The notes under the pieces are model-generated. The model did not search any database. It saw only the letters and a list, made by a program, of their open reading frames with translations, and was not told the origin of the DNA. DNA of 64,000 nucleotides from Thermococcus alcaliphilus (GTDB lineage: Archaea > Methanobacteriota_B > Thermococci > Thermococcales > Thermococcaceae). The translations under genes and the position numbers were made by a program. The stretch is from contig NZ_JAMXLV010000024.1 in NCBI RefSeq assembly GCF_024054535.1, positions 1 through 64,000 of the forward strand. The letters are read 5' to 3'. Positions 18,382 to 28,195 of this stretch are shown here, in pieces. How positions within the stretch are numbered: position 1 is the first letter of the stretch; every line of letters begins with the position of its first letter.

Positions 18382-20568
18382 TCATTTATGTTTGTCATCC
18401 TCATTGATGGTTATTGCGGGTGTTTCCAATACGATGATGCGTTCTACTCTTGATATCTCCGACCTGAAGTCAAACCTGCCGTCAGCTCCAATCAGCTTTA
18501 TGAAGAGCACCATGCTCTCTTCGCCCGTAGCCGGGTCCCTGAGGGTCAGGACCTCAATGATAAGCCTGTCCGGGCTGTGCTCTCCCAAACTCAAGGGTAT
18601 CTCCATGATGTACTCTGGGATTCCGTTCTTAACCCCACCCCCGCCGGCTATTATGACGAAGGGTATCTGGCCTTCATCTGATGTCCCGTAGTCGGGGTGG
18701 GAAAGCCTCTCTCTAACGGCAGAGGGGACGGGCAGTTTTGCTATATCGTTTCCCTCGATCGTCTCTCCCGTGAAGGAATTCTCCATATGGAAGGGACTCA
18801 GCGTTCTCGTCAGGAACGGGCTGTAGGGGCCGGGATACGCTGTGGTTTCGTTTACCGTCAGCGGGAAGCCCCACGGCGTGCCGTTGAATTCCCCATCAAT
18901 CCCATCGAGTTTTATGAACATGTCTACTGCAGATTCCGGATCGAGGACGTCCCTCATCTTCACGGGATCATGGGGTGTATCCGCGGACTCATTAAGGCCT
19001 TTGATGTCCATACTAATCCTCTCCACGTAGCGTTTTCCCTTGTATTCTTCGTTTATGGTCATTCTCATGGCAGTCATGTTGCCTCCTCCCACGAAAACGT
19101 CCACCTCCTCCAGCGGAATGCGCTCCACTTTTGGAGCATCAACCGAGCTTTCGGGACTTACGCGGAGAAGAACAGGGAGACTGCATTTTTCTTTTATGTT
19201 GAGCGTTATATCCCCATTTTCGTCCGTTTCAGCCTCCCAGCAGCCGACCTTTGCCGCCTCGGGAGTTCCACCCATAACGGCCAAAAAGAAGTCCCTTGAC
19301 ACCGGATTGACGGTGATGTCCTTCCGGATATCGCTTCCCTGCAATGCTGCCTCGCCAATTATCTCTCCAGTTTCGGCATCCACCATTGCGAGACCAAAGC
19401 CCATTGTGGTTACTTTGTACTCTCCAGCAGGAATTCCAATGGCCTTCGAATAGCCCTTTGCCTCCGGGATTTCCCGCTGTATCTTGACAAACTCCTCCGA
19501 GCTGAGCTCCCTGGCTTCGCTGTAGTTTCCTACCACCAGCAGCGTGCCGTTAACTGGGTAGCTACATGAGATGAAGGGGTTGTAGGGGGTTATCGTTATG
19601 ACGTTGTCACCGGTTAGTATCTCGTCGTGGGGGAGGTTGGCTCCAATGCACCCAACGCCCTCGATCGCGTACACTCCCGGGCCGAGCTTAACTCCCTGTG
19701 GCTCTCCGTAGGGGATTTCACTGATGAAAGAACCCCTCCTTACCTCTTTCACCACTATATTGCCCTGCGGAAGCGCCCTGTTCACCGCTTTGGCGAGCTC
19801 GGAACCTGCCTTGAACTTCACGACCTTGAGTGAGGGAACCACGATTCTGAAGGGATTTTGGGGGACGATTTTCCACCCCTGGCTTGGGTCTTTGGTATCT
19901 GCAAACCTCAGACCGCTCGCAGGGTGGTATATCTCAATGGAGACAATTTCCTTACCCTCAACTGCCTTTAGGGTATTCTGGGCCATCTCTCTTGCCGAGA
20001 CCCTCTTTCCATCCACCAGAAAAATCCCGTCCTCGTTGTAGAACTCGTTAATGGCTTCTCCTTCCTTTACCCTGTCCCAGTAGGTCCTTTCAACTGCAGC
20101 GGTTATAAGGGCGTTTCTTAGGGTCACCAGTTGGGCAAAGCGAATAATGTATGCATCGGAGAGGTATTCAAGCTTCTTGGTCTTGTTATCTTCGTTTTCG
20201 GCAAGTCTCATAAGCCTGTGAAATTCTTCCTCTTTTGGTGATGCTCCCACGAGGGAAGGTGTGCGTCCACTACCGAAAACACTGTCAATTAGCCCCACTG
20301 CTTCCTCAAGCTCCTTCAGCTTTACATCAATCTGGGCATCCTTCTCTTCTCGGGGCTGAGTTTCTGTGGGTGGCGTTGTTTCTGTTTGGGTCTCCGTTGG
20401 TGGGGGTGTTTCCGTCTCGGTTTTAGTTTCGGTTTCCGTTTTCGTTACTGTTTCTGTTGGCTTGCTGGTTGTTTCTGTGTTAACGCTTTGGTTTATACAT
20501 CCAGAGATGAAAGCTCCAAGCAACACTACACTCAAAAGCAGGGCAAAGCCTGCAAACCTACCTTTCAT
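18382..20568 (-). CDS. large lipoprotein of unknown function
   Basis: 728 residues from the ATG at 20568 after GGTGAAAAA. Signal peptide with lipobox ISGC (Cys22), then a Thr/Glu repeat linker (about 28-65, TETETKTETETPPP-like) that would act as a cell-surface stalk, then a helical segment (about 70-140) and several beta-rich domains. A few cysteines (about VGCIG, ISCSY, VGCWE and EKCSL) may pair. No family is recognised. GC-richer codons than nearby genes. Single gene; location outside the cell is secure, function is not. Confidence 0.75.
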   Translation of the reverse strand: MKGRFAGFALLLSVVLLGAFISGCINQSVNTETTSKPTETVTKTETETKTETETPPPTETQTETTPPTETQPREEKDAQIDVKLKELEEAVGLIDSVFGSGRTPSLVGASPKEEEFHRLMRLAENEDNKTKKLEYLSDAYIIRFAQLVTLRNALITAAVERTYWDRVKEGEAINEFYNEDGIFLVDGKRVSAREMAQNTLKAVEGKEIVSIEIYHPASGLRFADTKDPSQGWKIVPQNPFRIVVPSLKVVKFKAGSELAKAVNRALPQGNIVVKEVRRGSFISEIPYGEPQGVKLGPGVYAIEGVGCIGANLPHDEILTGDNVITITPYNPFISCSYPVNGTLLVVGNYSEARELSSEEFVKIQREIPEAKGYSKAIGIPAGEYKVTTMGFGLAMVDAETGEIIGEAALQGSDIRKDITVNPVSRDFFLAVMGGTPEAAKVGCWEAETDENGDITLNIKEKCSLPVLLRVSPESSVDAPKVERIPLEEVDVFVGGGNMTAMRMTINEEYKGKRYVERISMDIKGLNESADTPHDPVKMRDVLDPESAVDMFIKLDGIDGEFNGTPWGFPLTVNETTAYPGPYSPFLTRTLSPFHMENSFTGETIEGNDIAKLPVPSAVRERLSHPDYGTSDEGQIPFVIIAGGGGVKNGIPEYIMEIPLSLGEHSPDRLIIEVLTLRDPATGEESMVLFIKLIGADGRFDFRSEISRVERIIVLETPAITINEDDKHK

Positions 20569-20737
20569 TTTTTCACCAGCTTTTTCACACGGCGACAAAA
20601 AACGTCAAAAAACCATGTGATTATGATTTGTAATAAGCCGTCAAACTATAAAACAATTTCTGTTTAACATTTGCATATGAAGTAAAAAGATTGACTTAAC
20701 AAAAGGAAAACCAAAAGAAAAATTTTAATGAAAAGCT

Positions 20738-21256
20738 TCACGGTCCAACATGCATCATCTGGCTGTACATCTCCCAGTCGAGGAGGAGCTCGTATTCCGT
20801 CTTTAGGATGAAGTAGTGTGTATTTTCCATCGAAGCCAGATACCTAAGAAGACCTTTCTTTGCATTGTCATCCGTCATCTCTTCGAGCTTAGAATAGAAT
20901 TCTTTGGCAATCCTCTCCGCTTCCATAGCCCATCTAATCAGTTCCAACATATCCTGAACGTTTTTAATTTTCTCCGCAACGGGCTTTAACTCTGGCCCCA
21001 CATGTTCCTTGGGGAACACTATCTCCTCTCCGGGGAACGACTGGGCATAAAGCTTCCTTAAAAATTCCTCGTGCTTTTCCTCCTCCCCAGCGAGAAATTC
21101 CAGCTTCTTCCTTAGAGTCTCTATATCAACATTTGCGGCCATGCTTTTGTAAAACTCCCTTGCTCCTATTTCTGCTTTTATAGCCATTCCCAAAAGCTCC
21201 TTCAGAGAGAACTCATTCACCTTTTCAAGGGGAATCCCCATGTCAATCTCCACCAT
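20738..21256 (-). CDS. ferritin-like diiron protein
   Basis: 172 residues from the ATG at 21256, preceded by GAGGTGG. Helical halves with KAEIGAREFY plus GEEEKHEEF, and EAERIAKEFY plus MENTHYFIL. No rubredoxin domain. Tail LLLDWEMYSQMMHVGP resembles the tails of the proteins at 2481 and 7206, marking a subfamily. Single gene. Likely peroxide or iron handling by family membership. Confidence 0.8.
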   Translation of the reverse strand: MVEIDMGIPLEKVNEFSLKELLGMAIKAEIGAREFYKSMAANVDIETLRKKLEFLAGEEEKHEEFLRKLYAQSFPGEEIVFPKEHVGPELKPVAEKIKNVQDMLELIRWAMEAERIAKEFYSKLEEMTDDNAKKGLLRYLASMENTHYFILKTEYELLLDWEMYSQMMHVGP

Positions 21257-21350
21257 TTCTTCCACCTCATTTCAAAAACAAGACATTTATTAATAGGGCT
21301 TTTCCATACTAAAATCTTTCCATCAAATAAAGGTTCTAGTGACAAACCCT

Positions 21351-22046
21351 CTAACTCGAATATAAAAGTCTCATGGTAGAATTGCCAAGCCTTTCAGCTG
21401 CCACGTAATGAAGCCTCACTAGGGTGTAAATCCACAAGCTTATGGAAAAGAAGTACACTGCAGGAGCTATTTCTGGAGCAAAGATGTTGAGCCAGATAAA
21501 CACTACAAAAGCCCAAGACGATATTCCTGCAAGCCTCTTGTACTCTTCAGGGGTTCTAACATAGCCCGATATGGCATTGATGAGAAGAAGAATGGCCACT
21601 GAAGAGGCCAGCTCAACGGTATAAAAGCTCTCCCTTACAAAGATGGCACTCCCGGCTACAATACTAACTTGCAAGAACATTGTCCAAGTAGCCCTAACAA
21701 GTCCACTTTCCGAGAGGGAATAGGCTATTAAAACAGGCCCCAAAAGTATTGCAATAGTTATAATGCCCCTATGAACGTCAAACATTGTCGCGATAAAGCC
21801 GAGTGAAGTTAGTATTCCTCCAAAGAGGATGTACCAAGAAAGCCTCCTATGTCCTAAAAAGAAGTTCTCAATCTTCCTTGAAAGGTTCCAGGTAAGGAAA
21901 ATTCCCACAAGGGTCAGCACTCCACAGAGACTCATGAGAGTTTGATAAACACTTATCATGCTTCCATCGTCCAAGTTTTTACTCAGATAATTGGGAAGAA
22001 AACTAAATAAACCTTCCGGTAAACTTTTGTAGATTTTAAAAAACAT
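21351..22046 (-). CDS. polytopic membrane protein, type 1, third copy (KaiC-linked operon)
   Basis: 231 residues with about seven hydrophobic segments. Shares layout with the proteins at 22618 and 23786: a first helix pair, GGILTSLGFIATMF, a central LLGPVLIAYSLSES helix, SSWAFVVFIWL and the final SLWIYTLVRL. No enzyme motif or known domain seen. Last gene of the seven-gene operon starting at 25726; one-base gap to the gene before it. Confidence 0.65.
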   Translation of the reverse strand: MFFKIYKSLPEGLFSFLPNYLSKNLDDGSMISVYQTLMSLCGVLTLVGIFLTWNLSRKIENFFLGHRRLSWYILFGGILTSLGFIATMFDVHRGIITIAILLGPVLIAYSLSESGLVRATWTMFLQVSIVAGSAIFVRESFYTVELASSVAILLLINAISGYVRTPEEYKRLAGISSWAFVVFIWLNIFAPEIAPAVYFFSISLWIYTLVRLHYVAAERLGNSTMRLLYSS

Positions 22047-22047
22047 G

Positions 22048-22617
22048 CTAAGTTTGTTCCCAAGAAAAACTCCTTTTCTTTATGTTCTTCAAAATTTCCA
22101 CACCCTCAAACATCTGGAGGGCTCCAAATAACATCCCGCTGAAAAACGAGAATTCACTAACAAGATGGTATCCCATCAGATGGGAGAAGAAGCTAATGAA
22201 GAAGAAAAGGGAAGAAGTTGCCAGAGCATCGGTGTGAAGCCAAGGAAGGAGGTTGTTAAGTCTTATTCCTAAGAGAGCAGAGAGTGCAAATAGAAGTGTC
22301 ATCAATGGGAAAAGCAGTTCAACGGCCGCAAAAACAACATAAATCCCAACAGCAGCTGAAAGACCAACATACAGCCATGTCCATGCTCCAAGTCTACCAA
22401 AAGAAAACGCAAGCACAACAAAAAGAAAACTAATAGCCCCTATGAATCCGATAACGTTTCCAAACTCTGGAAAAGTGAGTTCGAGGAGAAAACCCAGTGC
22501 AAACATTGCAGAGGATAGATACATTATACTCCCCTGTGTTCCTTTTACTTTCCATGCCAGCGCCGCACCAAGAATTGAAGCACTGAGAACCAGGTAGGAG
22601 AGAGCTATCCCTATCAT
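22048..22617 (-). CDS. polytopic membrane protein, type 2, second copy (KaiC-linked operon)
   Basis: 189 residues with about six hydrophobic helices and little else. Layout resembles the protein at 23232 (helix, basic loop, long helices, then a final aromatic-rich helix ending in a charged tail). The ATG is directly next to the TGA of the preceding gene, whose 3' end provides AGGAGGTGG as ribosome site. Function unknown. Confidence 0.65.
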   Translation of the reverse strand: MIGIALSYLVLSASILGAALAWKVKGTQGSIMYLSSAMFALGFLLELTFPEFGNVIGFIGAISFLFVVLAFSFGRLGAWTWLYVGLSAAVGIYVVFAAVELLFPLMTLLFALSALLGIRLNNLLPWLHTDALATSSLFFFISFFSHLMGYHLVSEFSFFSGMLFGALQMFEGVEILKNIKKRSFSWEQT

Positions 22618-23235
22618 TCAAAGCCACCTCCTGAGGTAATCGTATATTCCCATGGCGGAGTACACCCAGAGAATTACAGCGGATGAGTAAAGGAGAACTA
22701 TGAGGAAAGACGTTCCTCCCAAAGAACCCTTGTTAATGAAGTACCTCAACCAGCTGTAGGCCACAAAAAGCCAAGAGGAAAGCAAGAGGGAGTACCTCAA
22801 AAAGGGGGAAAGAATCCTAAGCATTAAAAGGGAATGAACCAGAACAAGAAGGGCTAAAAGAACGCCTATGTAAATAATCTGTGCTGTGGTATCCGAAAAG
22901 CGAGAAGCGAGAGAGAGCGATGAAAGGATCAGAAGAAACTGGACAACGAACCTCTTCGTTGGAACAAGGACTCCCAGCGTGCTAAATGAATAGATCATTA
23001 TCCCCGGTCCTGCAAGAAGAAGAATGGTGATAATGTTCCTCTCAACTGCACTCGTTGGTCTCATAATGCATAAGAAGCCGATTGAAATTAGAATTCCCGC
23101 CAACAGAGGGGCAAAAACGACATACTTTTTTTCAGAAACATAACCTTTCAACTTATTAAAGATTAGGGTAACATAAGCTATCCCTAAAATCGTGAGGGCC
23201 CCGTTTAGTGCCATTATGATATGGTATTCAATCAT
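22618..23235 (-). CDS. polytopic membrane protein, type 1, second copy (KaiC-linked operon)
   Basis: 205 residues from the ATG at 23235, which overlaps the preceding stop (ATGA); a TTG at 23247 is upstream of the GGTGG ribosome site. About seven hydrophobic helices. Contains AGILISIGFLCIMR, LLLAGPGIMIYSFSTLG, SSWLFVAYSWLRYF and a C-terminal WVYSAMGIYDYLRRW that closely repeats the end of the protein at 23786. No known family. Confidence 0.68.
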   Translation of the reverse strand: MIEYHIIMALNGALTILGIAYVTLIFNKLKGYVSEKKYVVFAPLLAGILISIGFLCIMRPTSAVERNIITILLLAGPGIMIYSFSTLGVLVPTKRFVVQFLLILSSLSLASRFSDTTAQIIYIGVLLALLVLVHSLLMLRILSPFLRYSLLLSSWLFVAYSWLRYFINKGSLGGTSFLIVLLYSSAVILWVYSAMGIYDYLRRWL

Positions 23236-23786
23236 CTCATCCACCAAACCTTTTCTCCCATTGTAAGGAACAGGAATAATATTGCTGCGAAATATAGGAA
23301 CGCACTGACAACCTCAAATCCAATCAAAAACGTTGTGATGCTTAAGAGGGCAAATATGCTAGAAAAAAGCAGGGTATCCCTTATCTCCTCTCCGAGAAGA
23401 GATGCATTCTCCCTGAGGTTTAAAGGCAGGATAAGGAGAACCAACAGTGTGCCCACATGGAAGTATTCTAGATCACGGGATATAAAAACGATAAGCAGTG
23501 TAAGGGCAACAATCAAGAGGAAGTACTCGTAGCGAATTCTCCTGGCAGTGTTGACTGAGATGAACCTCTCCATAATCAATAGAATCCCTAGAATTCCAAA
23601 AAACTCTATCATATCTAAGCTGATCCCAAAGGCAATTTCTCCAATACCTGCTCCAATGAAAAACAGACCAAGTAAGAGTGCGTAGGGCTGATGGTATAAG
23701 ATGGGGTTCTTTTTTGTGGAAAAGCCGGTTATTATGAGAAGGCCAAGCAAAATATCAGGCAGGTTTGAAAGTAGAGCGCACTCCAC
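23232..23786 (-). CDS. polytopic membrane protein, type 2, first copy (KaiC-linked operon)
   Basis: 184 residues. The preferred start is GTG 23786, eight bases after AGGAGGT and overlapping the TAG of the previous gene; GTG 23795 would sit inside the ribosome site. About six hydrophobic helices, ending in EKVWWMR. Shares the type 2 layout with 22048. Unknown function. Confidence 0.65.
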   Translation of the reverse strand: MECALLSNLPDILLGLLIITGFSTKKNPILYHQPYALLLGLFFIGAGIGEIAFGISLDMIEFFGILGILLIMERFISVNTARRIRYEYFLLIVALTLLIVFISRDLEYFHVGTLLVLLILPLNLRENASLLGEEIRDTLLFSSIFALLSITTFLIGFEVVSAFLYFAAILFLFLTMGEKVWWMR

Positions 23787-24427
23787 TAAATCCACCTCCT
23801 CAATGTTTCGTATGTTCTAAGTGTAGAATATACCCACATAAGTAAACTTGTGAAATAAATCAAGAGAACCCCATAATGGATGCACGTTTGGGGGTTTTTG
23901 AAGGAATAATAGCGGAGCCATGCATGGAGGATAAGAAGCCAAGATGCAACCCTCGTGAGGTTTTTGTTAAAGCGTGTGCAAGTTGGCAAAGAGGAAATCA
24001 ATTTCATGAGAAAAACAAGAGAAATGAGAATAAAACTGGCTAATGCTCCTACAATTTTCCCCAAAGCAGGAAGTGGAAGAAAATAATAAATAAGGAGCGA
24101 CAGCAGGAGAACAGAGAGCTGCGCTTTAAATTCCTTATCAATTTCAAAATGCCTTATTGCAAAAAAAGGCAGGAGTATAAGGAGGGATCCGGTGAAAGGT
24201 AAGAGAATGATAAAGAGGGCAGTACTGGGCGAGGAAAAGATAACTCTAGTTGCCCTTAGAACGATCATTCCTCCGGCAATCATAAATCCACCAATTAATT
24301 GAAGGACTTCAAAGAGTTTACCCTTCTTGATGTACAAGTTAAGCTCATGGAATATCAAAATAGCAAAAGAAACTCCAAGTAAGATCGTGAATTCAATAAT
24401 AGGACTCAACAGCGTGTATTCATCCAA
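23786..24427 (-). CDS. polytopic membrane protein, type 1, first copy (KaiC-linked operon)
   Basis: About 213 residues from a TTG at 24427 placed five bases after AGGTGA; GTG 24436 is the alternative. About seven hydrophobic helices with GGFMIAGGMIVLRATRV, LPFTGSLLILLPF, ASWLLILHAWLRYY and the terminal WVYSTLRTYETLRRW. The shared motifs SW-x(5)-WLR and W-V-Y-S link it to 22618 and, more weakly, to 21351. It overlaps the degenerate KaiC-like gene. Confidence 0.65.
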   Translation of the reverse strand: MDEYTLLSPIIEFTILLGVSFAILIFHELNLYIKKGKLFEVLQLIGGFMIAGGMIVLRATRVIFSSPSTALFIILLPFTGSLLILLPFFAIRHFEIDKEFKAQLSVLLLSLLIYYFLPLPALGKIVGALASFILISLVFLMKLISSLPTCTRFNKNLTRVASWLLILHAWLRYYSFKNPQTCIHYGVLLIYFTSLLMWVYSTLRTYETLRRWI

Positions 24428-25019
24428 GGGGCTCACCTATGATAATTTCCTTGTTCAGTTCGAGCTTGTAAAAGCCCGTAACTCCTTTAGGAGACTTCTT
24501 AATCCTTATTCCCCTCGTTATTTTAAATCCATCAACAACCTCGACTATATCTATAACATGCGTTGCAGACTCCTCAAAAATAGCCAGGGTCTTCTCATCA
24601 AGCAGCCTCTTATCTACCATCGACATTAAGACAAAGCCACGTTCCAGAGCTATGTTGGCCAATTCAGAGAAGAAACGGTGGACTGTCTCAGGAGGATGGA
24701 AAACGAGAAGGGGCTGAAGGAAGAATATGCCAATTAAGTGATCCTTTGGTATCTCTCTCATTGCATGACTTACCTTGAAGAGCTCCTGTGGAGCAAAATC
24801 TTCTCCTAGGGTAAAGAAAATAACCCCCTCAATCCCCTCTATCTTCTCAAGTCTCTTTTTAAGGCGAGGGGTTACAAAGACAACAGCCTTTTCTTTATTC
24901 TCTCTTAGAACAGCTAAAACTATTTCTATCCCCAGCTCTCCGATGGTTGATATTAAAATCGTGCTTCCCGGTTCAACTTCTCCGAGGAGCTCATCAAGCT
25001 TAGGGACGCCAAGTTTCAT
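24420..25019 (-). CDS. degenerate KaiC/RecA-fold protein without Walker A
   Basis: 199 residues. The N-terminus LGVPKLDELLGEVEPGSTILIS aligns with the KaiC start, but where the P-loop GxxGxGKT should be it has TIGELGIEIV, so ATP binding is doubtful. A later hydrophobic strand with VFVTPR and a segment like the KaiC beta-sheet follow (HLIGIFFLQPLLVF), and the C-terminus has VVDGFKITRGIRIKKSPKG, similar to RGIKITKFRGS of the intact neighbour. It may pair with that ATPase as an inactive subunit. Starts two bases after it. Confidence 0.7.
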   Translation of the reverse strand: MKLGVPKLDELLGEVEPGSTILISTIGELGIEIVLAVLRENKEKAVVFVTPRLKKRLEKIEGIEGVIFFTLGEDFAPQELFKVSHAMREIPKDHLIGIFFLQPLLVFHPPETVHRFFSELANIALERGFVLMSMVDKRLLDEKTLAIFEESATHVIDIVEVVDGFKITRGIRIKKSPKGVTGFYKLELNKEIIIGEPLG

Positions 25020-25021
25020 AT

Positions 25022-25726
25022 TCAGACCCCGTGAAACAGAACTTCTTGGTGGTAAACTTCAATGCCCTTGTCAGTTATCTTATAAGGCCTAATCTCCTCA
25101 TCAAAGGTACTCCCTCTGAACTTCGTTATCTTAATGCCTCTAAGGGTCTTTCCACGCTCTTCGATTGATCTCAGCTCTATAACCCCGCTCACAAGATACT
25201 CCTCAATATCACTATCTCTAAGCTCTGAAGTAAGGATAATTGTAGCCTTATACTTGGATATCGTCTTCAGAAAAGCCATAAAAGTTCTTCTGTACTCAAG
25301 CTCATCTATAATCGTAAGCCTGATCATTGTTAAAGGATCTATAACTATTCTTGAGTAATTTTCAGCATTGAGTTCTTCGCTTATTGCCCTTGTAAGCTTT
25401 TCAAAGCTGGTTGCAAATTCTTCATAAAGGACGTCGGCAAAGATAGTCTTCTTTTCTCCTACGGGTGTTGCATCCACGAGCTTTATATTGGGGTGATCCA
25501 GATCAAAGCCAAATTTGCTCATGTCCTCTTTGAGGGTTGAAATGGGCTCTTCAAAAGTAATATACAGACATTTTTCTCCTTTTTTAGTCCCTTCCATCAA
25601 AAACTGCATTGCCAACGTAGTTTTACCAGCTCCAGGTCCTCCTTTTATAAGATACGCCCTCCCGGGGATGAGGCCACCGTTGAGCATTTTATCGAGGCCT
25701 TCAACCCCTGTAGAAATTCTCTTCAT
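25022..25726 (-). CDS. KaiC-like RecA-superfamily ATPase
   Basis: 234 residues from the ATG at 25726 after GGTGAG. Single KaiC domain: STGVEGLDKMLNGGLIPGR, Walker A GGPGAGKTT, ITFEEP with the catalytic glutamates, Walker B-type RIVIDPLTMIRL, and the terminal LRGIKITKFRGS. Archaeal KaiC-family ATPases are usually parts of signal-transduction or motility switches rather than clocks. It heads an operon with a degenerate paralogue and five membrane proteins, suggesting an ATPase-controlled membrane complex. Substrate and partner are unknown. Confidence 0.9.
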   Translation of the reverse strand: MKRISTGVEGLDKMLNGGLIPGRAYLIKGGPGAGKTTLAMQFLMEGTKKGEKCLYITFEEPISTLKEDMSKFGFDLDHPNIKLVDATPVGEKKTIFADVLYEEFATSFEKLTRAISEELNAENYSRIVIDPLTMIRLTIIDELEYRRTFMAFLKTISKYKATIILTSELRDSDIEEYLVSGVIELRSIEERGKTLRGIKITKFRGSTFDEEIRPYKITDKGIEVYHQEVLFHGV

Positions 25727-25771
25727 GTTACTCACCACTGTGAGTTAATCTACTCTCAACTTAATAAACCT

Positions 25772-25804
25772 TTTTAATTGTACAAGATGTTTTAATTGTA
25801 TAAG
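25772..25804. repeat. direct repeat in the promoter of the KaiC-linked operon
   Basis: Two near-identical 15-mers, TTTTAATTGTACAAG (25772-25786) and TTTTAATTGTATAAG (25790-25804), 18 bases apart start to start. On the leftward strand they read CTTGTACAATTAAAA and CTTATACAATTAAAA, containing TATA-like sequence. They lie 46-78 bases upstream of the KaiC-like start. Possible tandem operator or duplicated promoter. Confidence 0.5.
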
Positions 25805-25875: not shown

Positions 25876-26250
25876 TCACTCAAGCTGAACCTCGTTCTCC
25901 CAGAGGCCGTGGATGTTACAGTAACTCAAAGCATAGAGCTTGCCCTTCTTCTTGGTCTTGAGTACAAAGTAAGCTATGGGCTCTGTGTACACATCACTCG
26001 TGTTTGGGCCGTTTACAGACTCTCCATGGGCTGTAAACTCAGCCCTTCCAACATGGTAAACAAAGTTCTCGCCCTCTGGTAAGAAGTAAAGCTCTATGTA
26101 TCTGATGTGGTGCTCGGTGGTGTTTGGATGCGGGATTTCTTTACCAACTTGCACCTTAACTTTAACAAGCTCTCCTTCTCTTTCGTACTCTATAACGGGG
26201 ACGTGCTTTTCTCCTTTCCAGTCCCCACTCCTTATGGTTTCACCAATCAT
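25876..26250 (-). CDS. sorA: superoxide reductase (1Fe, neelaredoxin type)
   Basis: 124 residues from the ATG at 26250, the length of the P. furiosus enzyme; an ORF extension to 26259 is upstream of the ribosome site. The non-heme iron ligands are visible: Glu and His of KGEKHVPVIE, HP and HH of EIPHPNTTEHHIRYIE, and YCNIHGLW (Cys and His). Reduces superoxide to hydrogen peroxide without making oxygen, using electrons from rubredoxin. Lies 10 bases after the rubredoxin gene, whose 3' end supplies the GAGGTGG ribosome site. Confidence 0.97.
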   Translation of the reverse strand: MIGETIRSGDWKGEKHVPVIEYEREGELVKVKVQVGKEIPHPNTTEHHIRYIELYFLPEGENFVYHVGRAEFTAHGESVNGPNTSDVYTEPIAYFVLKTKKKGKLYALSYCNIHGLWENEVQLE

Positions 26251-26260
26251 CCCGACCACC

Positions 26261-26425
26261 TCAATCCTCTATCTTTTCAAACATGTCTTTTGGAGCTCCA
26301 CAGAGCGGGCATACCCAATCATCCGGGATGTCCTCAAACTTTGTTCCTGGGGCAACTCCACTATCCGGATCCCCTGCTTCCTCATCGTATATGTATCCAC
26401 AAACTATGCACTTCCACTTCGCCAT
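26261..26425 (-). CDS. rubredoxin
   Basis: 54 residues, too short for many ORF filters. CIVCGYIY and CPLCGAPK give the two CxxC pairs that hold one iron; the DWVCP segment and acidic surface are typical. Carries electrons from NROR to SOR, rubrerythrin and possibly the flavodiiron protein. First gene of the rubredoxin-SOR operon. The leader contains the palindrome CTAATATTATTAG (about 26439-26451) just downstream of a TTTATAAGG TATA box. Confidence 0.97.
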
Positions 26426-26503: not shown

Positions 26504-27019
26504 TTACTCAAACACTACGAACTTGTCCCTTGAAGTGCCACAGACTGGGCAGTACTCTGGAGCCTCGTCAACTGCTGTGTAGCCGCAAACTGGGCAGATG
26601 TAGACCTTCTTTATCTCTATGTCCTTCTTCTGCTCTGCAAGTTCTTTTGCCTTTTTATAAAGCTCTGCATGGATTTTTTCGGCCTCCAAGGCATAGTGAG
26701 TGCTCCTAACGGCTTCTTTCTCTCCTTGGAACTCTGCCACTTTATTGAAAACAGGGTACATTTCTTCAACTTCATAGGTCTCGCCATCAATAGCAACTTG
26801 AAGATTGCTTGGGGTGTCCTTAACGTTGCCTAAAGCTTCATAGTGATTTTTTGCATGAACGAGCTCTGCATAGGCTATAGCTCTAAAAAGCTTCGCTATG
26901 TTTGGAAATCCTTCCTTCTCAGCCACATCCGCAAAAATCATGTACCTCATGTGGGCCATGCTTTCCCCAGCGTATGCTTCCTCAAGAAACTTCTTGGTCA
27001 TTTTTCTTTCAACCACCAT
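26504..27019 (-). CDS. rbr: rubrerythrin
   Basis: 171 residues from the ATG at 27019 after GAGGTGAT, the same length as P. furiosus rubrerythrin. N-terminal diiron domain: EAYAGESMAHMRY, AIAYAELVHAKNH and EAVRSTHYALEAEKIHAEL, which supply the ligands. C-terminal rubredoxin-type domain: CPVCGYTAVDEAPEYCPVCG. Reduces hydrogen peroxide to water with rubredoxin as donor, removing the product of SOR. Own promoter with the ACCTT-N13-TCGAA element. Confidence 0.97.
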   Translation of the reverse strand: MVVERKMTKKFLEEAYAGESMAHMRYMIFADVAEKEGFPNIAKLFRAIAYAELVHAKNHYEALGNVKDTPSNLQVAIDGETYEVEEMYPVFNKVAEFQGEKEAVRSTHYALEAEKIHAELYKKAKELAEQKKDIEIKKVYICPVCGYTAVDEAPEYCPVCGTSRDKFVVFE

Positions 27020-27048
27020 ACCCATCACCTCAAAACGGCATTATTAAT

Positions 27049-27106: not shown

Positions 27107-28195
27107 TCACAGTTCATCTATGCTAACTCCAGCTTTTATCTTCCTCTCCAGCATCATTGCCTTCCTTATGTCCTCCATAACAACCGCTCCGACTATCTTG
27201 CCTCCTTCAAGGAAAACTTTTGTCTTCTCATCCAGCCACTTTCCCTCTCCCCTTGTTTTTCCAATCAGGGCTATTGAGAAATTTCCAAATTTAAAAACTG
27301 TGGAACGGAATTCAAAGTCATACCTGTCTTCTATACCTCTTAAAAGGTTAGCAAGGACTCTCGCATGCCCCATGGCAGCCTTTGCAGTGCCGCAGATTAT
27401 TCCATTGTACTCGGCGCAATCTCCGATAGCATACACATCCTTTGCTGAAGTTCGGAAGTGGTCATCAATCAATATTCCCCTCCCAGCGTGAATACCGCTT
27501 TTAACGGCTATTTCCTTGTTGGGAACAATTCCAAAAGCGCATATCTTGACTTTCCCATTTACGTAACCCTTATCCGTAAGAACTCCCTCATTATCTGCCT
27601 TCAGCGCATTTGCATTGAGATAAAACTCTACCCCATCGCATTCGAGCTTCTCCATCATTACTTTCGTGAGCTCTTCATCAAGGCCAAGAAGATTACTCCT
27701 TCTGTGAACTAACTTAACTTTGTAGCCTGCTTTTGCCAGGTTCCCAGCAAGCTCAAGACCTATAAATCCGCCGCCAAGTATCAGAACGTCTTCATATTTT
27801 TCTATTTGCTCTTTAATTCTCTCGGCATCCTGGAGTGTTCTAAGGGTGTGTACGAACTCTTTGCCCTCAAGAGTTGGTTTTCTTGGCCTGGCACCGGTGG
27901 CTATAACTAAGACATCGTAGGGTATCTCGCCTTCACTTGTTATCAGCCTTTTTCGAGCCCTGTCTATTAACTCCGCTCTTACCCCTAGATTCAGGTCTAT
28001 TCCTTTCTTTTCGTACCATTCAAGGGAATACGGGAAGAGCTTTTCCTTCTCAATGAATCCTGCTATGTAATGGCTTAACATAGGTTTGCTGTAATGGGGA
28101 ACCTTCTCCTGCTCAACTATGCTTATCTCTTCTCCAGAAAGCTGATTGGCTAATTCCACTCCCCCGGGCCCATTTCCAACTATGACAATCCTCAT
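27107..28195 (-). CDS. nror: NAD(P)H:rubredoxin oxidoreductase
   Basis: 362 residues. FAD-binding [10 protein letters not shown] at the N-terminus, second dinucleotide fold [19 protein letters not shown] for NAD(P)[10 protein letters not shown], and the FAD-contacting [11 protein letters not shown]. Matches the two-dinucleotide-fold NROR of P. furiosus in length. Feeds electrons from NAD(P)H to rubredoxin for superoxide, peroxide and oxygen removal. It starts 10 bases after the ferritin-like gene at 28206 and is probably co-transcribed with it. Confidence 0.92.

Follow-up and report, generated by a model that had tools for sequence, protein, structure and literature searches.

The stretch of DNA analysed here, a 64,000-nucleotide window of contig NZ_JAMXLV010000024.1 of Thermococcus alcaliphilus, carries at positions 21,351 to 25,726 an array of seven leftward genes. 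Comparison of gene order identifies the conserved unit within this array as KaiC-iKaiC-T1a-T2, that is, an active KaiC-family ATPase (K), an inactive KaiC-like partner (i, or iKaiC) and two predicted seven-transmembrane (7-TM) proteins belonging to different families, which we will refer to as T1 and T2. The most informative fact regarding this array, which was overlooked in the first-pass annotation of this DNA, is that genes for superoxide reductase (SOR), rubrerythrin and NAD(P)H:rubredoxin oxidoreductase (NROR) lie directly upstream of it, with a ferritin-like gene directly downstream. We regard it as close to an even proposition that the unit is a KaiC/iKaiC signalling module that is docked at the membrane and serves the SOR/rubrerythrin antioxidant system of the Thermococcaceae. 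The association of the module with the antioxidant locus is likely to be functional, and this part of the proposal is firmer than the sensor mechanism, which is somewhat favoured once a functional association is granted. The seven genes, all verified in the open reading frame (ORF) list of the window, are as follows.

25022..25726, minus strand: gene 1 (K), single-domain KaiC-family ATPase of 234 aa (PF06745 match and motifs)
24420..25019, minus strand: gene 2 (i), stand-alone inactive KaiC-like domain of the DUF835 type, 199 aa (no Walker A; DUF835 matches among relatives)
23786..24436, minus strand: gene 3 (T1a), predicted 7-TM protein, part of the K-i-T1-T2 unit (T1 tree)
23232..23795, minus strand: gene 4 (T2a), predicted 7-TM protein of the second family, T2 (AlphaFold2 model; T1 adjacency)
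22618..23247, minus strand: gene 5 (T1b), second T1, putative alternative partner pair with gene 6 (AlphaFold2 model; T1 tree)
22048..22617, minus strand: gene 6 (T2b), second T2 (T2 family profile; 3' scar in relatives)
21351..21974 (called start 22046), minus strand: gene 7 (T1c), T1 of the type that stands alone in the antioxidant locus (tree; revised start)

The distribution of these genes was surveyed by means of sequence profiles in 115 genomes of the phylum. T1 was found in 61 of these genomes, T2 in 24 (including one weak match of 22 bits) and orthologues of gene 2 in about 34, whereas the gene 2 profile as such hits 60 genomes, DUF835 proteins being among its matches; T1, T2 and the gene 2 orthologues are all confined to the family of the window's genome. 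The order K-i-T1-T2 was observed at 24 loci (at one of them, L071, the short contig begins only with i), and every T2 gene has an adjacent T1, while a K-i pair without T1 and T2 is present at nine loci. No T1 gene borne on a plasmid was found. A fusion of iKaiC with T1 in one genome (G049, L083:5520-6743) was considered as proof of contact between the two proteins and rejected, as the K gene of that genome is broken into pieces, the genes so joined overlap one another in other loci, and the fusion would place i at the N-terminus of T1, which is predicted to lie outside.

The antioxidant genes adjoining the array in the window are the following.

25876..26259, minus strand: superoxide reductase, directly upstream of gene 1 (homologue L117_07 matches Desulfoferrodox at 1.3e-28; tblastn map)
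26261..26425, minus strand: rubredoxin, a 54-aa ORF with two CxxCG motifs, adjoining SOR in the conserved locus
26504..27028, minus strand: rubrerythrin (homologue L117_08 matches Rubrerythrin at 1.2e-27 and RUBY_RBDX)
27107..28195, minus strand: NROR (homologue L119_03 matches Pyr_redox_2 and PF1197-like_C)
20738..21265, minus strand: ferritin/rubrerythrin-like protein, downstream of gene 7 (PF02915, 5.2e-26)

The complete order in the window is FprA-type protein, two rubrerythrin-family genes, NROR, rubrerythrin, rubredoxin, SOR, K-i-T1a-T2a-T1b-T2b, T1c and the ferritin-like gene. When a neighbourhood was scored by the presence of genes for SOR, rubrerythrin or DUF59 (Fe-S assembly) within 4.5 kb, 44 of the 47 loci with T1 alone were found to have such neighbours, the typical order around a stand-alone T1c being SOR-T1-DUF59-DUF59-ferritin-like. 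By the same rule the full unit lies in an SOR/rubrerythrin locus in 13 of 24 cases, or in an antioxidant locus in 15 of 24 if L068 and L075 are counted by their ferritin-like/rubrerythrin flanks. The association with the SOR locus spans five genera and several arrangements. Additionally, in three genomes (G047, G060 and G062) the K-i pair is located 14-17 kb from SOR; a margin of 20 kb on each side of one gene amounts to about 2% of a 2 Mb genome. A diverged type of K-i pair, in turn, lies 0.1-2.5 kb from a flavoprotein of the CoA-disulfide-reductase/NADH-oxidase type in five of six loci (L094-L098, not L093). Also found beside this diverged type are a membrane protein with an endonuclease/exonuclease/phosphatase domain (L094:3252-4997) and a KptA-type RNA 2'-phosphotransferase (L094:5029-5562).

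A further link between the operon and this locus is provided by what remains of gene 6 in some relatives. At four loci that lack the operon, on contigs of G098 and G102 (L113 and L130) and of G099 and again G102 (L116 and L131), the 3'-terminal 27-42 bp of gene 6 are retained in frame together with the stop codon between SOR and T1c, encoding SFSWEQT* in L113 and VEILKSIKKRSFSWK* in L116, and these scars lie in stretches that are 92-96% identical to the window. The simplest reading of these sequences is that the KaiC operon was once present in these relatives and was subsequently deleted. The two contigs of G102 (C101 and C121, with L130 and L131) hold two differing SOR-T1c loci, and this genome, which is 79% complete, may mix two strains.

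Gene 1 is, as judged from its motifs, an intact single-domain KaiC-family ATPase, for which hydrolysis and hexamer formation would be expected. It matches PF06745 with an E value of 4.7e-52 (177.1 bits, against a cut-off of 26.6) and solved KaiC relatives with E values down to 2.7e-43. Its P-loop reads GGPGAGKT, and the core P-loop residues, E59/E60, D130 and K202-x-R204 are invariant in an alignment of 27 sequences, where the KxR finger is aligned with that of cyanobacterial KaiC. Its assignment as a circadian KaiC was rejected, as the protein has one domain of 234 aa and scores 75.7 bits against the circ_KaiC equivalog cut-off of 546; similarly, its assignment as ArlH fails with 41.1 bits against a cut-off of 215.

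In gene 2, Walker A (GxxGxGKT) is absent from all 31 aligned sequences, including the window protein. DUF835 (PF05763), a domain that is classed as an inactivated KaiC-like domain, iKaiC, in PMC5847659, is matched by 24 of the 31 gene 2 relatives (best E value 3.6e-7), and the gene 2 profile retrieves DUF835 proteins in the genome search, while the window protein itself reaches 14.8 bits, under the cut-off of 33.1. A direct alignment of genes 1 and 2 by hhalign (172 columns, 24% identity) gave a score of 24.2, compared to a maximum of 23.3 for 60 shuffled profiles, and the DUF835 matches are better evidence than this alignment that gene 2 is probably KaiC-like. The residues invariant in gene 2 include D136-K137-R138, R172, K174 and P177, and position 175, which in the hhalign register is aligned with the finger lysine of the active K, is Lys in 30 of the 31 sequences and Arg in the remaining one. 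In the genome of the window the KaiC profile has 11 matches and DUF835 has 12, so that the K-i pair is one of several there.

The membrane proteins fall into two families. One comprises genes 3, 5 and 7, whose homology is shown by phmmer from gene 5 (E values of about 1e-12 to 1e-15), and the other genes 4 and 6, which are likewise homologous (E value of about 1e-4); gene 6 matches the T2 family profile with an E value of 3e-39. Models were made by AlphaFold2 for one member of each family, gene 5 for T1 (53 T1 rows) and gene 4 for T2 (26 T2 rows), and both contain seven helices, with mean scores by the predicted local distance difference test of 85.9 and 86.6, respectively. The charges of the loops over both families favour, by the positive-inside rule, an N-out/C-in orientation, loop 6 of T1 being less clear, and T1 and T2 are thus predicted to be seven-helix proteins with the N-terminus outside and the C-terminus inside. 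In T1, G80 and W159 are invariant among the 53 sequences, while Q103, Y187 and W194 are kept in >90%. No conserved His, Cys or charge was found in the membrane core of T1 in these sequences, because of which T1 is more readily viewed as a sensor or a scaffold than as a redox enzyme or an ion-coupled pump. In T2, F78 is present in all sequences, and E64, E76, E181 and C6 in 73-96% (C6 in 84%). No Pfam family is broadly matched by the 53 T1 and 26 T2 members (the best value, 0.001, being to Got1 for four T1 members), and a fold search of the PDB with the two models gave no match at E <= 0.001; the best TM-score of the T2 model is about 0.5, to rhodopsins and ACER3. No conserved Lys corresponding to the retinal lysine of microbial rhodopsins is present in TM7 of T1 or T2. 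A relationship between T1 and T2 themselves is unsupported (hhalign probability of 1.4%).

Part of what the first-pass annotation had read from this DNA is borne out by these analyses. The P-loop of gene 1 is intact as it had stated, the loss of Walker A from gene 2 extends to every aligned sequence, and the pairing of an active and an inactive KaiC with membrane partners is supported both by motifs and by conserved linkage. The layout that it had seen shared by genes 3, 5 and 7, and the other shared by genes 4 and 6, correspond to the two families; no Pfam family placed these proteins, and they are related within their families and retain a common neighbourhood. Its description of them as polytopic membrane proteins also holds, with the models of genes 5 and 4 giving seven helices in place of the 6-7 that it had proposed.

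Its account of how the array was packed and how it arose needs revision. Genes 1 to 6 overlap or lie a few bases apart, as it had noted, and because of the overlaps of 17 bp (genes 2/3), 10 bp (genes 3/4) and 16 bp (genes 4/5) and the spacing of 2 bp (genes 1/2) and 0 bp (genes 5/6), they look like one translationally coupled operon. Gene 7, which had also been taken as closely packed in the operon, probably stands apart. Its called ATG (22046) sits 24-29 codons 5' of the region in which its relatives start, near the sequence xDDxxMxxxYQ, and the called extension contains a TATA-like box that is also found 5' of T1c in L113, L116 and L119 (G098, G099 and G093), with the variant GGAAGATTTATTTA in L117 (G096). 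In view of the start region of the relatives and of this box, the true start of gene 7 is probably 21974 (TTG) or 21959 (ATG), about 73-88 bp past gene 6, and the gene would have its own promoter. The two TATA-like boxes are listed below.

22004..22017, minus strand: TATA-like box of gene 7, GGAAGGTTTATTTA, within the called 5' extension and kept 5' of T1c elsewhere
25760..25775, minus strand: TATA-like box 5' of gene 1, AAAAGGTTTATTAA, with similar boxes 5' of K in relatives

The SurR-like motif GTTnnnAAC was not observed at a frequency above chance, nor at all in the region upstream of K, and no RNA elements were detected across 18-30 kb of the window.

In the T1 tree, gene 3 is part of a clade, with support of 100/99, of T1 genes that are preceded by i and followed by T2, gene 7 branches among stand-alone T1 genes of other genomes with support of 100/100, and gene 5 lies near the base, between the T1 clades. 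Gene 5 is only 24-25% identical to genes 3 and 7. The T1 that stands alone in G098 shares 95% identity with gene 7. Gene 7 is thus placed by the tree in a separate, older T1 clade, whose members normally stand alone in the antioxidant locus. Because in one genome (G068, L071) a T1b-T2b-like pair directly follows i, genes 5 and 6 look like an anciently diverged second pair, an alternative partner to genes 3 and 4 that is here additional to them. The tandem duplication of a two-gene unit, by which the alternating order of the two types had been explained, is ruled out as the whole story by these deep and separate positions. Two pieces of T1 genes were also observed, a decayed T1b with a stop between T2a and T1c (G104:C42:5673-5798, L066) and a short remnant adjoining SOR (G062:C5:23669-23752).

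In the mechanism that we would propose, T1 and T2 would sense the state of the membrane or a redox/oxygen-related state, and K and i would form a hetero-oligomer at their cytoplasmic faces. Without a P-loop, i should be unable to bind ATP in that manner, but since its residue 175 is basic where KaiC has a trans-acting finger lysine, it may influence the ATPase activity of adjacent K subunits. Through its ATP state, K would then relay the signal to a partner that is not encoded in the operon, and gene 7 would be a paralogous sensor of the antioxidant locus, able to work without K, i and T2. A bolder formulation is possible but doubtful. Under it, anaerobic archaea would possess a hitherto undescribed membrane signalling system in which paired 7-TM receptors from two new families drive a KaiC hetero-oligomer that includes an ATP-dead subunit, and this system would sense oxygen/superoxide stress and tune the SOR/rubrerythrin defence.

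Several observations weigh against the proposed signalling role. The operon encodes no output domain or DNA-binding protein, and T1 is also retained where K-i is missing, so that K and T1 need not form a fixed pair. T1 and i are absent from all nine genomes of genus g3, in which SOR is present, and the module is therefore accessory. In four genomes (G042, G096, G100 and G105) the unit is located far from an intact SOR. Lastly, the loci of the unit share descent and are not independent, and hence no P value is given for their association with SOR. The last two points also favour an alternative under which the KaiC unit would be a signalling module of general use that receives an unrelated input, its place in the antioxidant locus being inherited and of no functional meaning. 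We consider this alternative unlikely, in view of the several differing arrangements at the SOR locus in five genera, the separate T1c clade that has the same neighbours, and the diverged K-i type that adjoins another redox flavoprotein.

It is also rather improbable that T1 and T2 form a channel or transporter, energised or gated by K and i, for an ion or small metabolite needed in oxygen stress. The membrane pair with seven helices in its models and the conserved acidic residues of T2 (E64, E76 and E181) are in keeping with such a role, but the T1 helices have no conserved charged residue, neither protein matches a transporter family or fold, and KaiC ATPases are not known to act as transport motors. 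Quite improbable, finally, is that T1 and T2 contribute a membrane component, for redox or for lipid protection, to the SOR pathway, with K and i as their assembly or quality-control ATPase: T1 is persistently found at the SOR locus and T1c exists without K and i, but T1 lacks any conserved His or Cys that could hold a haem, flavin or metal, and T2 has one Cys (C6), retained in 84% of sequences.

Some additional features of these loci were observed. The gap between SOR and T1c is about 1.1 kb in six genomes (L122, L134, L136, L139, L140 and L145), and that of L122 contains a reverse-strand ORF for a membrane protein of 335 aa; in L105 (G074) the gap is 1.9 kb, with a possible transposase-like ORF on the reverse strand and, immediately following SOR, a small ORF of winged-helix-like character, which is also present in L149 (G068). 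Downstream of the ferritin-like gene, the window contains on the minus strand (18382-20598) an ORF of 738 aa, the product of which has a lipobox-like N-terminus and a linker rich in Thr and Glu; no counterpart is present at the corresponding place in G098 and G096.

The oxygen sensing and response of Thermococcales are, to our knowledge, largely open. If the signalling module proposed here is real, it would represent an oxygen/superoxide-sensing membrane system in organisms with very few two-component systems; in the Thermococci hardly any are present, according to PMC5847659. No report of the T1 and T2 families, of the four-gene unit or of a link of KaiC, T1 or T2 to the SOR cluster was found in the open-licence library searched, whereas the general idea of a KaiC/iKaiC hub is already known.

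Of the known systems, cyanobacterial KaiC has in common with gene 1 the Walker motifs, the EE pair and the KxR finger, but gene 1 has one domain and its operon contains no KaiA or KaiB. ArlH (FlaH) and GvpD are, like gene 1, single KaiC-like domains encoded alongside membrane machinery, but no archaellum or gas-vesicle gene is present in this operon and gene 1 is far under the ArlH cut-off. The DUF835 membrane proteins of Thermococcales carry an inactive KaiC-like domain related to gene 2 in one chain with N-terminal transmembrane helices, whereas gene 2 is stand-alone and paired with an active KaiC, its membrane partners being separate predicted 7-TM proteins. Microbial rhodopsins and receptors resembling G-protein-coupled receptors share the seven helices and N-out/C-in orientation predicted for T1 and T2, which have no significant fold match to any solved member. 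The SOR/rubredoxin/rubrerythrin/NROR cluster of Thermococcales, whose conservation was noted for Palaeococcus pacificus (PMC6981617), is the locus that houses the unit. The closest likeness is to the archaeal KaiC/iKaiC signalling hubs with input domains of Makarova, Galperin and Koonin (2017), which are cited in PMC5847659 and other papers, and in view of this published concept the earlier statement that such an assembly is not named in any scheme was too strong. In these hubs, as at the 24 K-i-T1-T2 loci, an active KaiC-like ATPase and an inactivated homologue are linked with putative input proteins, and signal transfer is predicted. What differs here is the fixed four-gene unit, the two 7-TM families and the antioxidant-locus address. 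Because this compact unit combines a live and a dead KaiC with two 7-TM families that have no Pfam name and a repeated superoxide-defence address, it makes the hub hypothesis directly testable, with the membrane pair as the candidate input and oxidative defence as the candidate process.

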